This document shows, piece by piece, positions 3,897 to 10,632 of a stretch of DNA of 21,687 bases. The notes under the pieces are model-generated. The model saw only the letters and a program-made list of their open reading frames with translations. It searched no databases and was not told where the DNA came from. Source of the stretch: a virus. The stretch lies in the IMG/VR virus record IMGVR_UViG_3300006846_000061, positions 1 to 21,687 of that record; one strand, written 5' to 3'. The position numbers and the translations under genes are program-made. Numbering within the stretch: the stretch's first letter is position 1; each line of letters starts with the position of its first letter.

Positions 3897-4288
3897 GGCG
3901 TCACCGCCCGCTGCCCGTACTCCAGCGTGTGCTGGTGCTGCGAGACGCGCTGCGAGCGCTGCGCCACGAGCTCGGTGGCGCGCCCCACGCTGTGGCCCAG
4001 CTCGAGCAGACTCGCGTGCAGCTTCGCCGCAGCCACCGCGCAGTCACGCGTCGGCCAGTCGCACGCGTTGCCGTCAGCGTCCACCGCGTCGATGCGCACG
4101 TCGCGCGCAGCCCACGCGGCGTCCTTCGGGCGGAAGCGCACGTCCCAGTCGCCGCCCATGCGCGACACATAGTACGTGCCGTGCTCGCAGACGCTCTCGA
4201 GCGCAACGGGAGAAAAGTCCAACACGACATCGCTCGGCGCCTCAGCCGCAAGAGCGCGCCTCCGGAACCAGTTCTTCTGCAGCATCAT
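3893..4288 (-). CDS. Hypothetical protein, 131 residues
   Basis: Not recognised. The start is the first of two adjacent ATGs (4288 and 4285), in an ATGA overlap with the HNH gene. The protein has a basic N terminus (MMLQKNWFRRR), a central beta-rich part (VCEHGTYYVSRMGGDWDVRFRPKD) and a helical C-terminal half (AVAAAKLHASLLELGHSVGRATELVAQR) ending in a His/Gln-rich tail. No known motif is seen. Before the HNH insertion it would have been coupled directly to the zincin gene, as the repeat at its start shows. Confidence 0.75.
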   Translation of the reverse strand: MMLQKNWFRRRALAAEAPSDVVLDFSPVALESVCEHGTYYVSRMGGDWDVRFRPKDAAWAARDVRIDAVDADGNACDWPTRDCAVAAAKLHASLLELGHSVGRATELVAQRSQRVSQHQHTLEYGQRAVTP

Positions 4289-4298
4289 GGCAGCCCCC
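4285..4298. repeat. 14-bp direct repeat, copy 1 (3' end of HNH gene)
   Basis: tcatggcagccccc, identical to 4767-4780. On the minus strand it encodes the end of the HNH protein (GLP and stop) and the ATG of the next gene. Copy 2 does the same for the zincin gene and the HNH start. Confidence 0.85.
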
Positions 4299-4770
4299 CA
4301 AGGTTTGTACGAGCGAACTCGCCGAACGCCTCCACCGCGGCACGGTCATAGGCAGCGGCGGCCTCCAAAGCAGTGGCAAAGAGACCTAGGTATTGGTGCC
4401 TCCCAAGAACGGTGATCTGAGCTCGCCACTTTCCGCGCTGTCTGTGCCAATCGACGCCCTTCAGTCCGCTCTTGCTCGAAGAGCTCGGGCGACTATTCGC
4501 GATGTTCTGAGAGCGCGTCGCGGGTCGTAGGTTTTCGCGGCGATTGTCCAGGCCGTCTCCGTTGCGGTGATCGACATCCTTGTCGGTCTGGCAGATCATC
4601 CGATGCATGAGTACGTAGCGAGGTCCGGGCTCGCCTTTCTTCGCGTGGCGGCAAGCGTAAGACTCGCCTCGGTAGTCTGTGACCGCATGCCACTTCCACG
4701 CAGAGAGCCGCTCGTAGTCCTCGTCGTCTACGATTGCGACCAGGCCGCGGGTGAGCTCGATGGTCTTCAT
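4285..4770 (-). CDS. HNH endonuclease with AP2 DNA-binding domain (free-standing homing type)
   Basis: 161 residues from ATG at 4770 (MKTIELTRG). Residues around 50-95 contain the HNH_3 pattern: MHRMICQ, VDHRNGDGLDNRRENLRPAT and QNIANSR, with the DH and N residues of the beta-beta-alpha metal site. Residues about 103-155 (SGLKGVDWHRQRGKWRAQI, YLGLFATALEAAAAYDRAAVEAFG) are a typical AP2 domain that contacts target DNA. Such genes move by cutting alleles that lack them. It sits between two genes with ATGA overlaps on both sides and is bracketed by an exact 14-bp repeat, so it has been inserted without breaking the operon. Third-position GC is lower than in its neighbours, consistent with transfer. 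Confidence 0.93.
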   Translation of the reverse strand: MKTIELTRGLVAIVDDEDYERLSAWKWHAVTDYRGESYACRHAKKGEPGPRYVLMHRMICQTDKDVDHRNGDGLDNRRENLRPATRSQNIANSRPSSSSKSGLKGVDWHRQRGKWRAQITVLGRHQYLGLFATALEAAAAYDRAAVEAFGEFARTNLGGLP

Positions 4771-4780
4771 GGCAGCCCCC
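4767..4780. repeat. 14-bp direct repeat, copy 2 (5' end of HNH gene)
   Basis: tcatggcagccccc, the second copy, exactly 482 bases from the first. It holds the GLP-stop end of the zincin gene and the start codon of the HNH gene. Removing the DNA between the copies would rejoin the zincin and 131-residue genes with an intact ATGA overlap. Confidence 0.85.
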
Positions 4781-5714
4781 ACTTGGCCTTCACGCGTTCG
4801 GCCACCGGCGCAAGAACGTCTGAGTGGTCACACCCGTACTCGGCGAACACCGTGCCTGGCATGTGGCCGCCCGGGCCGAGCAGCACGTGGGCGAGTTCGT
4901 GCAGCGCGACGCAGGGCCTGAGCAGCGCCGGCACGTAAAATATGCGTACGTGGTCGTCGACCGGCAGCGTGCACGCCGGCTCGCCCAGCTCGGTCGAGGC
5001 GCGCACCCGCACGTCGCAGCCCGCGGTCTCGTCGAGCAGCACGGCCGTGCCGATCTCCACGTTCCAGCGCTGCTCCGCCGCCCGCCAGACCGCGCGGTCG
5101 TCCGCCGGCACGCTGCCGTCGAAGCACACCCCGTGCGGCGGCGCCCCGAGCGGCCACTCGTTGCACGCGCAGACCAGCAGCACCGCGAGCAGCGCGATCA
5201 GCTGCCGGATGCGCAGGGCACGCGCGCGCCACGAGGCAGCTGCCTCAGTTCGGTCGCACAACGCCGCGTCGTCAGCCCGCATGGCGCAGTCCTCGGCGCG
5301 AATCTCGAGCTCGCGGCGCATGTCGGCGCGGTCGAGCGCGGTGAGCTGGCCTTGCATGATTGCGACGATCGGCCTGGGCTCCTCGCATGCCTTCTTGCAC
5401 GCCTGCCGGATCGCCTCCAGATCCTCCGCGCTGACGAGCACTGGCTCGGGGCGCAGCGAAGCGCAATCAGCCGGCGCGTGCTCAGCGCAGAAGCGCCAGC
5501 CGCGCGCCGCATCGGCGAGGTGGTCGAGCATCCCGAGCGCTCGCCCGCAACGCGTTTCGACGCCGACGCCAGCGGCGCGATCGTCGCCGAGACGCTCGCT
5601 CGCTGCCCGCGCGTAGCAGGTCGGGCAGCGAGAGCTGGGAGCCGGGGCGCGCTCTCCCTCGGCATGCAGGGTGCCGAGAGCGCCTCCGGTGGGCGGGCCG
5701 ATGCGCTCAGCCAT
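4767..5714 (-). CDS. HExxH zincin-like protein with internal lipoprotein-like segment (possible two-gene fusion)
   Basis: 315 residues from ATG at 5714, with GAGGAG ten bases upstream. Residues 1-100 are Cys/His-rich (CPTC at 30-33, then RC, FCAEH, DC) and may bind zinc. Residues about 100-170 are charged helix. A hydrophobic stretch LIALLAVLLVCAC (172-184) ends in a lipobox-like VCAC and is followed by a 131-residue domain with four more cysteines and HELAH at 272-276, with another His at 284: a zinc metallopeptidase signature. The C-terminal part therefore looks like an exported lipoprotein peptidase, but no ATG or GTG lies directly before the hydrophobic stretch in frame. Either the two halves form one membrane-anchored protein or two genes have fused. 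Substrate unknown; a role at the cell envelope is inferred. Confidence 0.7.
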   Translation of the reverse strand: MAERIGPPTGGALGTLHAEGERAPAPSSRCPTCYARAASERLGDDRAAGVGVETRCGRALGMLDHLADAARGWRFCAEHAPADCASLRPEPVLVSAEDLEAIRQACKKACEEPRPIVAIMQGQLTALDRADMRRELEIRAEDCAMRADDAALCDRTEAAASWRARALRIRQLIALLAVLLVCACNEWPLGAPPHGVCFDGSVPADDRAVWRAAEQRWNVEIGTAVLLDETAGCDVRVRASTELGEPACTLPVDDHVRIFYVPALLRPCVALHELAHVLLGPGGHMPGTVFAEYGCDHSDVLAPVAERVKAKWGLP

Positions 5715-6908: not shown

Positions 6909-7289
6909 CTACTTACGCTTGGTCAGAAGGTCGACCACAACGCGGGCTGTATGCTGCTCTACGTCCGCCTCCTCGAGCAGCAGCGCGAGCCCCCTGCGTT
7001 GCCGATCGGTGAGTCGTTTTAGTTCGTCTTCAGAAAACAGCTGTCGCAACTGTGCCTCGCTCACGGCCCCCTCCGTTTCCCCGCCGGTCATAAGAACATC
7101 AACGGTTACGCCAAAGTACGACGCCAGGCGTTCCCAGTTGTCGCGGGGGAGCGCCTTACCGGATTCCCAGTTGGACACGGATGACACAGCAACGTCAATG
7201 TGAGCGGCCAGCTGTTGTTGTGTGAGAGTTTTACCGACACGCAGTAACCTGATGAAAGCACCGACTTTTTGGGGATCTGGCTCGGACAT
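6909..7289 (-). CDS. XRE-family transcriptional repressor (CI-like)
   Basis: 126 residues from ATG at 7289. Residues 9-66 form a helix-turn-helix of the Cro/CI (XRE) family: IRLLRVGKTLTQQQLAAHIDV, SSVSNWESGKALP, WERLASYFGV and DVLMTGG. The C-terminal 55 residues are helical (LTDRQRRGLALLLEEA). There is no peptidase S24 domain, so it would not be cleaved by RecA as lambda CI is; induction, if any, needs another signal. It is divergent from the Cro-like gene and 109 bases away. No ribosome site is seen upstream and the inferred promoter would start the mRNA at or next to the ATG, as for lambda cI from pRM. The gene is richer in A+T than its surroundings. Confidence 0.88.
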   Translation of the reverse strand: MSEPDPQKVGAFIRLLRVGKTLTQQQLAAHIDVAVSSVSNWESGKALPRDNWERLASYFGVTVDVLMTGGETEGAVSEAQLRQLFSEDELKRLTDRQRRGLALLLEEADVEQHTARVVVDLLTKRK

Positions 7290-7398: not shown

Positions 7399-7626
7399 AT
7401 GGGGAAACCTCGCGTCGAGGCTTTTGGGTCGCGCTTCCGCTCCCGGCGGGAAGCGTTAGGCATCTCGCGTTCGGCGGCAGCGCGTGCGGTGGACGTGCAC
7501 GTCACGAACCTGATGGGCTGGGAGGACGAGGGGAAGCTCCCCAAAGACCCGCACGTCTTCCCTCGGGCAGCCAGCCTGCTGGAGTGCGACGGCTGGTGGC
7601 TGCTGACCGGTGAGGGCGCGCCATGA
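7399..7626 (+). CDS. Cro-like helix-turn-helix protein
   Basis: 75 residues from ATG at 7399. FGSRFRSRREALGISRSAAARAVDV, NLMGWEDEGKLPKDP and ASLLECDGWWLLTGEG follow the five-helix XRE layout, ending like many repressors in a W-LLTGEG segment. There is no room for other domains, as in Cro. It is the first gene of the rightward operon and overlaps the next by ATGA. No ribosome site precedes the ATG, which is within a few bases of the inferred transcription start, so leaderless translation is likely. It probably shares operators with the divergent repressor. Confidence 0.82.
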   Translation: MGKPRVEAFGSRFRSRREALGISRSAAARAVDVHVTNLMGWEDEGKLPKDPHVFPRAASLLECDGWWLLTGEGAP

Positions 7627-9032: not shown

Positions 9033-9659
9033 GTGCAGGCGCACCTGTTCGGCGAGCCCGAGCTCCAGCCTTCCCTGTCGCAGTGGCATACGCCTGCGTG
9101 GCTGGCGCGGCGCATGGCCGGCTGGGTGCCGCGCTGGGCGCGCGTGCTCGAGCCGAGCTGCGGAGGCGGCGCGCTGATCGAAGGGCTGATCCGCGCCGGA
9201 CACCAGCCGTCGCTCATCCTCGCGATCGACCTGGACCCCGCTTGGGCGCGGCACTGCGAGGAGCGCTTCCCGGGCCTGCTGGTGCTGCGAGGCGACTTCC
9301 GGGCGTCAGCTCCGGAGCTTCGGGCCGCTGAGCTCGACTTCGTGCTGATGAACCCGCCCTTCGAGGACAACGGCCACCTGCGCTTCGTGCTGCGCGCGCT
9401 CGAGCTCGCGCCCGTGGTGGTCGGCGCCTTCCCCGTGTCTTTCCAGTTCAGCCTACAGCGCGATCGCGAGCTCTGGGCGCCGCGCGCTGTCGTCACACGG
9501 CGAGCAATCCTTCCCGAGCGTGTGGACTACGGCGGCGACCAGTCGCCGAGCTTCGACAGCGTGGTGCTGCAGATCGAGCGCCGCAGGAAGCCGCGTTTTC
9601 CGGGCGAGGTGCGCGAGGTCGAAGAAGAGGTTTGGACGCCGCACGACGTGCGCGTGTAG
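9033..9659 (+). CDS. DNA N6-adenine methyltransferase (orphan)
   Basis: 208 residues from GTG at 9033. Motif I VLEPSCGGGALIEGL (38-52) binds S-adenosylmethionine, AIDLDP (64-69) is the acidic ribose contact, and NPPF (107-110) is the catalytic motif IV of N6-adenine (or N4-cytosine) enzymes. An N-terminal SLSQWHTPAWLARRM segment is also usual for this phage family. It has no obvious target-recognition domain and no restriction gene nearby, so it is probably an orphan enzyme that marks phage DNA against host restriction or tunes regulation. It lies next to a Tad2-like gene. Confidence 0.88.
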   Translation: MQAHLFGEPELQPSLSQWHTPAWLARRMAGWVPRWARVLEPSCGGGALIEGLIRAGHQPSLILAIDLDPAWARHCEERFPGLLVLRGDFRASAPELRAAELDFVLMNPPFEDNGHLRFVLRALELAPVVVGAFPVSFQFSLQRDRELWAPRAVVTRRAILPERVDYGGDQSPSFDSVVLQIERRRKPRFPGEVREVEEEVWTPHDVRV

Positions 9660-9679
9660 CGGCGAGGAGGAAAGAGGAC

Positions 9680-10165
9680 ATGGGCATATTTAGGAAGAAG
9701 CCGGTGATCGTGGAGGCAGTGCAGTTCACTGGTGGCAACGGAACCGACGTGCTCACGTGGGCGGGCGTGGATGGTGCACTCGAAGAGGATCTGCTCAACG
9801 GCCCGCAGGCGGTGGAGTTCGAGACCTCAGAGGGCCGGATGCGTGCCGAGGTCGGGCACTGGGTGATCCGCGGCGTGAACGGCTCGCTGTACACGTGCAC
9901 GCCGGAGAACTTCGCAACGGCGTTCGAGGCACCTGTCGCGGCGTCCGGCAGCTTCGGCTGGGCCATCGAGCAGCTGAAGGCCGGCCAGCGCGTCGCGCGC
10001 GCCGGCTGGAACGGCAAGGGCATGTGGCTCGGTCTGCAGGTGCCGGATGAGCACTCGAAGATGGGGCACCCGTATATCTACATGAGCGATGTCAACGCAA
10101 AGCTGTTCCCATGGAACCCGAACGCGCTCGACATGCTGTCGGAGGACTGGGAGGTGGTGTCTTGA
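9680..10165 (+). CDS. Two-domain protein: phage RKKPVxxEAVQ domain fused to DUF2829 (Tad2-like)
   Basis: 161 residues from ATG at 9680, with GAGGAGGAAAGAGG ahead. Residues 1-84 match a widespread phage domain: FRKKPVIVEAVQFTG, VEFETSEGRMRAEVGHWVIRGVNG, SLYTCTPENFATAFE. Residues 91-161 match DUF2829: SFGWAIEQLKAGQRVARAGWNGKGMWLGL, YIYMSDVNAKLFPWNP and DMLSEDWEVV. DUF2829 is the family of Tad2, which sequesters the signal molecule of Thoeris defence; some homologs also bind cyclic oligonucleotides. The reaction here would be binding, not catalysis. The neighbour upstream is a methyltransferase, so the pair may counter host defences. The N-terminal domain has no known role, and whether this copy binds a nucleotide signal is inference. 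Confidence 0.85.
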   Translation: MGIFRKKPVIVEAVQFTGGNGTDVLTWAGVDGALEEDLLNGPQAVEFETSEGRMRAEVGHWVIRGVNGSLYTCTPENFATAFEAPVAASGSFGWAIEQLKAGQRVARAGWNGKGMWLGLQVPDEHSKMGHPYIYMSDVNAKLFPWNPNALDMLSEDWEVVS

Positions 10166-10602
10166 GCAAAGAGGGCGAGATCGAGACGCAGAAGTTGCCT
10201 TGCAAGCTCTCACCGAGCGAGCGCGAGGCAAAGAACGCGGACCTGGTGCGGCTCGAGCAGGAGCGGAGCACGCAGGAGGCCGAGAAAAAGGCCTGGGTGT
10301 CCGAGAAGAACGCGCAGCTGAAGCAGACGCGCGCGCAAATCGACCAGACCGTCAAGGAGCTGCACGAGGGCGTGGAGCTGCGCGACGTCGAAGTCGAGAC
10401 GGTCTACCTTTTTGGCGAAAACCGCGTCGACTACGTGCGGCGCGACACTCAGGGAGTGGTCTCCTCGCGCGACATGGACGCTTACGACCGGCAGGAGAGC
10501 CTTCCAGACCCGGACATGCTGCCTCCGCCCGCCAAACCGCAGCCGCGCAAGCGCAAGAAGCGCGGCGAGCTCACCGACGTGCCCGATTCTGTAGCCGAGT
10601 AG
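10162..10602 (+). CDS. Coiled-coil phage protein, 146 residues
   Basis: TTG at 10162 overlaps the upstream stop (TTGA), with GGGAGG about eight bases ahead. Residues 17-70 are a charged coiled coil (LSPSEREAKNADLVRLEQERSTQ, KKAWVSEKNAQLKQTRAQIDQTVKELHEG). A beta part follows (VELRDVEVETVYLFGENRVDYVRRDTQGVVSSRDM), and the end is Pro/Lys-rich (PAKPQPRKRKKRGE). The VEVE...R-x-Y-x-RRDT-G-VVSSR pattern is common in unannotated phage proteins. It closes the first rightward gene block, before a terminator. Confidence 0.75.
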   Translation: MSKEGEIETQKLPCKLSPSEREAKNADLVRLEQERSTQEAEKKAWVSEKNAQLKQTRAQIDQTVKELHEGVELRDVEVETVYLFGENRVDYVRRDTQGVVSSRDMDAYDRQESLPDPDMLPPPAKPQPRKRKKRGELTDVPDSVAE

Positions 10603-10607
10603 CGTCT

Positions 10608-10632
10608 TTGGCCCGCTGCGGGCGGTTTCTTC
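10608..10632 (+). terminator. Weak intrinsic terminator
   Basis: Hairpin GCCCG-CTG-CGGGC (10611-10623), followed by GGTTTCTTCC. The stem is only 5 bp and the T tract is interrupted, so it is likely to be partial. It lies nine bases after the coiled-coil gene's stop and separates the two early gene blocks. Confidence 0.5.

Follow-up and report, generated by a model that had tools for sequence, protein, structure and literature searches.

A phage gene that joins a PGDYG-like N-terminal domain to a Tad2-like domain with a rewritten beta4-alpha3 loop

Tad2 sponges whose structures are solved are small, single-domain proteins; what, then, might be the role of a phage protein in which a Tad2-like domain follows a second domain that is very common in phages but uncharacterized? 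The gene in question is a 161-amino-acid (aa) open reading frame (ORF) at positions 9680 to 10165 (+) of the window, by which we mean the whole stretch of DNA analyzed here: a linear virus record from IMG/VR, 21,687 bases long with 68% GC. We found no close relative of the window in the phage, viral, and genome collections, and using its portal, terminase, and helicase to find relatives of the phage yielded nothing useful. The frame is open from an ATG start to a TGA stop and has a good Shine-Dalgarno-like sequence (AGGAGGA, 9665 to 9671, +) ∼9 nt 5′ of the ATG at 9680. GC content by codon position shows coding periodicity both in the N-terminal part (0.65/0.46/0.81) and in the Tad2 part (0.61/0.44/0.90). 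A methyltransferase-like gene (9033 to 9659, +) ends 20 bp upstream, and a small ORF (10162 to 10602, +) overlaps the fusion stop codon (TTGA); it is followed by a terminator-like stem-loop with a T-rich tail (10611 to 10625, +; consensus match only). The fusion gene is possibly coexpressed with the upstream methyltransferase and this one downstream ORF.

The initial annotation assigned the C-terminal 70 residues to DUF2829/Tad2, and this identity is well founded: Pfam PF11195 (Tad2-like) matches residues 91 to 160 (9950 to 10159, +) with 84.6 bits (cutoff, 25) and an E value of 7e-24, and phmmer matches include the SPO1 Tad2, ModTad2, SptTad2, and HgmTad2 chains. Given 97 aligned proteins from the window and the loci, AlphaFold2 modeled the fusion with a mean pLDDT of 92 and a pTM of 0.59; thus, both domains are confidently predicted, but their mutual orientation is uncertain. 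Comparison of the predicted structure with Tad2, which the annotation had proposed, bears out the assignment. The Tad2 half matched ten Tad2 entries at Z 10.2 to 11.7 and ∼40% identity, with unrelated rows starting at Z 4.2; the ten include the SPO1 Tad2 gcADPR complex, the ModTad2 His-ADPR complex, and HgmTad2/AcrIIA7, and the best of them was SPO1 Tad2 8wje_B (Z 11.7, rmsd 2.7 over 75 residues).

SPO1 Tad2 (Gp34.65; 8smf and 8wje), which sequesters gcADPR, has the same fold and the same GWNGKGM loop as the window domain, at ∼40% identity over 75 residues; however, it stands alone, whereas the window protein has an extra N-domain, and it reads WVPSQTD where the window domain reads WNPNALD. 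ModTad2, from a Myroides odoratus prophage (9eib, His-ADPR complex), likewise has the fold of the window domain (Z 11.2) and lacks an N-domain; its beta4-alpha3 loop (PSVSD) also differs from S-Q-T, although the serine is kept. HgmTad2/AcrIIA7 and SptTad2 (8kbj, 8kbk, and 8wjd; Z 10.2 to 11.5) share the fold as well, but their structures, determined with cGG, contain a long insertion that is missing from the window protein, in which N-A-L also takes the place of S-Q-T. The stretch between GMW and the loop tryptophan, counted from alignments, is 28 residues in the window, compared to ∼41 in SPO1 Tad2 and ModTad2 and ∼53 to 60 in SptTad2 and HgmTad2.

A review (PMC12043709) locates the gcADPR pocket of Tad2 at three loops (beta1-beta2, beta3-beta4, and beta4-alpha3), strand beta4, and helix alpha3; we assigned pocket residues by secondary-structure element from that review, rather than from coordinates or residue contacts. 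On this basis, the expectation that the pocket would retain Tad2 ligand residues was only partly borne out. The beta1-beta2 loop GWNGKGM (residues 109 to 115; 10004 to 10024, +), 100% conserved among the sampled Tad2 domains with which it was aligned, is intact, and the window is identical over the conserved R-x-GWNGKGM. The beta4-alpha3 loop, which in the window model is W145-N-P-N-A-L-D151 with a helix at 149 to 153 (residues 145 to 151; 10112 to 10132, +), retains the W and D of the aligned family motif W-x-x-S-Q-T-D, but S, Q, and T are replaced by N, A, and L; S-Q is present in ∼126 of 141 sampled Tad2 domains. The altered loop recurs as WNPNN(I/L)D in four other contigs (L002, L003, L006, and L008), which group with the window in one clade (support, 100/95), and a tight WNPN motif scan of the viral collection recovered only these four. 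Among the relatives, L002 and L006 have stand-alone WNPN proteins, L005 an S-Q-A fusion, and L174 a PSV-type fusion. Because a Tad2 that binds gcADPR and one that binds His-ADPR are unlike in their beta4-alpha3 loops, a role for this loop in specificity is a fair inference, and its rewriting in the window's small subclade suggests that Tad2 specificity has shifted. S-Q-T is not strictly defining for a working sponge, given the PSVSD of ModTad2. The WNPN loop, as a variant that occurs in nature, can be used to ask which residues determine the specificity of Tad2. At L002, the nearest relative, a MazG-like gene lies directly 5′ of the Tad2 gene, and near the WNPN Tad2 gene of L003 (L003:3064-4982) are a nucleoside 2-deoxyribosyltransferase-like protein and a PNKP-type HAD phosphatase.

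An insertion that lies between beta2 and beta5 is reported as the site where Tad2 binds cyclic dinucleotides (PMC12043709), and SPO1 Tad2 does not bind 3′3′-cGAMP (PMC11722364). Since the corresponding stretch, at 28 residues, is shorter in the window protein than in the solved Tad2 proteins, this protein is unlikely to bind CBASS cyclic dinucleotides, an activity of some Tad2 proteins that the initial annotation had raised.

The N-terminal domain (residues 1 to 84; 9680 to 9931, +) is distantly PGDYG-like. By profile match, its residues 4 to 84 belong with phrog_419, phrog_1810, and phrog_4502 (E values of 1.7e-18, 7.7e-18, and 3e-12), families without an assigned function. Modeled alone, the N half reached a pLDDT of 91 and a pTM of 0.78. 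A fold search of the PDB with this half gave no convincing match (best row, Z 2.6, which we treated as no information); in BFVD it resembles many predicted phage proteins, several of them named “PGDYG protein.” The Pfam PGDYG model, PF14083 (cutoff, 27 bits), is weakly matched by 33 of 84 N-domain relatives (best E value, 9.5e-5), while the window N-domain itself does not match it. The window copy is a member of the phrog families and resembles viral PGDYG proteins in its predicted fold, but falls below the Pfam model. The N-domain is found in 782 of 50,697 phage records, and stand-alone copies are common; most sampled N-domain proteins are 80 to 120 aa long, in agreement with the earlier view that this domain usually occurs alone in phages. 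The window copy has lost many residues that are >90% conserved in the family (for example, D60, E69, P72, K74, T81, and Y82); because the most conserved residues are eroded, it may be inactive or repurposed. A search with the eroded motif YTCTPExF returned two chance matches, neither of them an N-domain.

The fusion itself is real, as the initial annotation proposed, but it is not a one-off: besides the window, 18 proteins from the fetched loci have an N-domain ahead of a Tad2 domain, although one of these is truncated where its contig stops, in one the N match is split, and two (L009 and L010) are identical in sequence. Because loci were sampled for their resemblance to the window and to L005, the counts should not be read as population frequencies. 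The same arrangement occurs in Latilactobacillus phage TMW 1.2272 P1 and in prophages of cultured bacteria from the genera Palleronia, Novosphingobium, Halocynthiibacter, Pantoea, and Stenotrophomonas (Novosphingobium rosa and Palleronia pelagia among the hosts), and the two domains are also encoded by separate adjacent genes, in both orders (L076, L218, and L149; L168 and L172). A full MAFFT alignment of 119 fusion, N-only, and Tad2-only proteins, which stacked the two domains on each other, was set aside for a checked subset. When N-fusion is mapped onto a tree of 132 Tad2 domains, whose values are rough given the short alignment, 11 changes are required, and well-supported branches force at least 6 of them. 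The N-domain was probably joined to Tad2 several times independently. The window's fusion is probably one such joining, because its Tad2 domain falls in a compact-loop clade otherwise unfused to the N-domain.

A different N-terminal module stands ahead of Tad2 in 24 rows of the tree, including that of coliphage N4 gp49; by motif, it is mostly of the GYISWSPK type. Like the window protein, N4 gp49 (L082:2938-3420) and related prophage DUF2829 proteins have a similarly sized N-terminal module in front of their Tad2-like domain, a layout common in prophages, but the N4 module is of this other type (GYISWSPK...FEEAY); we do not equate it with the window N-domain (hhalign probability, 2.8%; no homology shown). 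Klebsiella phage-plasmids also carry DUF2829 proteins. Tad2 sponges, and fused DUF2829 proteins in public records, are already known; the recurrent N-fusion, the WNPN subclade, and pairs of Tad2 with Acb2/Tad1 are not described in the searchable literature, which included few subscription papers.

The N-domain also has other partners: it is fused to NADAR (E value, 3e-29), PRA-PH, and WDGH domains. One protein (L090:3956-5083) consists of the PGDYG-like N-domain and a NADAR (ADP-ribose glycosidase-type) domain; L085:1986-2735, L119:3153-3797, and L067:5420-6001 are further fusions, including PRA-PH/MazG-type and WDGH partners, and the L067 protein, in which Phage_gp49_66 is joined to a weak N-domain match, lies directly upstream of an N-Tad2 fusion. 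In Gordonia phage OneUp (gp102-103; L084:1983-2860), an N-domain protein directly follows genes for PRPP synthetase and NAMPT, which are gene types of phage NAD+ salvage, and precedes a YspA-type SLOG protein, in an NAD-salvage-like operon. A tblastn span had made OneUp gp102 a candidate Tad2 fusion; its C terminus lacks a Tad2 motif, and we therefore count it as an N-domain protein only. The RyDEP study described a cADPR-cleaving phage protein encoded within an NAD+-making NARP1 operon (PMC13232231).

Acb2_Tad1_hairpin was the commonest Pfam family next to Tad2 genes (5 of 114 neighbor proteins). Of 50 contigs that encode relatives of the Tad2 domain of the window, 12 have such a gene above the cutoff, and in 9 of the 50 (L015, L018, L021, L024, L046, L048, L053, L066, and L070) it lies on the same strand, 6 to 116 bp from Tad2, where random placement predicts 0.28; such chance figures overstate independence, because the paired loci are partly one lineage and represent fewer than nine independent events. 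In these loci, a compact-clade Tad2 and an Acb2/Tad1-hairpin gene appear, from gene order, to form a two-sponge operon. The signal is one of adjacency, not of whole-contig enrichment: over whole contigs, Acb2/Tad1 genes occur in 12 of 50 with Tad2 versus 5 of 50 with the N-domain only, a difference that is not significant (Fisher P, 0.11). Stand-alone N-domain genes have an Acb2/Tad1 gene 30 to 242 bp away in 3 of 50 contigs (of 5 positive), with 0.09 expected; N-domain genes so placed include those of L152 and L153. Fusion contigs rarely carry one (1 of 16), and our search of the window found none. A counter-defense context for the window's Tad2 clade is supported by these neighborhoods.

We lean toward reading the fusion gene as encoding a Tad2-type counter-defense protein of the phage. 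Judging from SPO1 Tad2 and ModTad2, its Tad2 domain would assemble into a tetramer that holds an alarm molecule derived from ADP-ribose (His-ADPR, one of the gcADPR isomers, or a related compound), and with the signal so held the Thoeris effector would not be switched on. The rewritten beta4-alpha3 loop has probably shifted which signal is held. Counting against this reading, the pocket loop lacks S-Q-T, the N-domain is missing many conserved residues, our search of the window gave no Acb2/Tad1 gene, and no Thoeris system is in sight. The N-domain appears to be a separate module, joined to Tad2 several times, and may too act on, bind, or help clear NAD/ADP-ribose-type or other nucleotide signals, as suggested by its partners (NADAR and MazG/PRA-PH) and its neighbors (Acb2/Tad1-hairpin genes, and PRPP synthetase with NAMPT); alternatively, it may only steer assembly. 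Its recurrent fusion to Tad2 hints that it is also a counter-defense part.

Several other explanations bear on the whole gene or on the Tad2 half. Decay of the fusion gene, or an annotation artifact of a high-GC genome, is very improbable: although several conserved residues are gone from both domains and long spurious ORFs are plentiful at 68% GC, the frame is intact, the ribosome site strong, the periodicity coding, and the predicted fold of both domains of high confidence, and the loop change is common to four relatives. The initial annotation paired the fusion with the adjacent methyltransferase as a possible early anti-defense pair. The neighbor is as described: the gene at 9033 to 9659 (+) matches phrog_799 DNA methyltransferase (E value, 1.7e-9) and PADLOC MTase_II (E value, 1.3e-8) and contains EPSCGGG and NPPF motifs, its Pfam methyltransferase matches all being below the cutoff. 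With the two genes 20 bp apart on one strand, a terminator-like site after the next ORF, and a DNA modification methylase after the fusion in Latilactobacillus phage TMW 1.2272 P1, a dedicated pair (anti-restriction plus anti-Thoeris) has some appeal. Nevertheless, we consider it improbable, because a methyltransferase lies within two genes at only ∼3 of 80 Tad2 loci, these are all of different families (EcoRI-type, C5, and Dam), and we saw none beside the WNPN relatives that we read. Rather unlikely, in our view, is that the WNPN-subclade Tad2 is kept but is no Thoeris sponge, binding another small molecule or serving only as a scaffold. The change from S-Q-T to N-A-L at the pocket rim is heritable in the subclade rather than a random error, and the loop has 28 residues against ∼41 to 60 in solved Tad2 proteins; on the other hand, GWNGKGM and the beta4-alpha3 aspartate are both intact, and ModTad2 binds His-ADPR with PSVSD, so the loop may vary while a signal is still bound.

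The sponge explanation is compatible with a further reading, which covers the N-domain only and which we regard as quite possible, if short of an even chance: that this domain has no counter-defense activity and is a passenger or oligomerization module altering the solubility, stability, or assembly of the sponge. Erosion of the strongest family motif in the window copy, the lack of a convincing match to a solved structure, and the many different, adaptor-like fusion partners all fit such a module, but an assembly module would not need the common stand-alone copies (782 of 50,697 records), some beside Acb2/Tad1 genes. At the other extreme, the PGDYG-like N-domain could be a counter-defense module in its own right, with an NAD/ADP-ribose-type immune signal as its ligand or substrate; its repeated fusions to Tad2, NADAR, and MazG-type domains would be two-pocket (or bind-and-process) proteins, and the signal of the WNPN Tad2 subclade would differ from both gcADPR and His-ADPR. 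We put this fuller proposal forward as a speculative one that is unlikely to hold as a whole. The recurrent fusion to Tad2 gives a handle on this very common phage domain and leads to the prediction that stand-alone N-domains beside Acb2/Tad1-hairpin genes should interfere with nucleotide-signal immunity.

Elsewhere in the window are a tRNA-Tyr gene with anticodon GTA (962 to 1043, −), a tandem repeat of four copies of CGTCCCCGTACC (859 to 906), and a homing-type HNH endonuclease with an AP2 domain (4285 to 4782, −). Upstream of the methyltransferase and Tad2 genes, a CI-like helix-turn-helix (HTH) repressor (6909 to 7289, −) faces a second small HTH-like protein (7399 to 7626, +), and the two may constitute a lysogeny switch.
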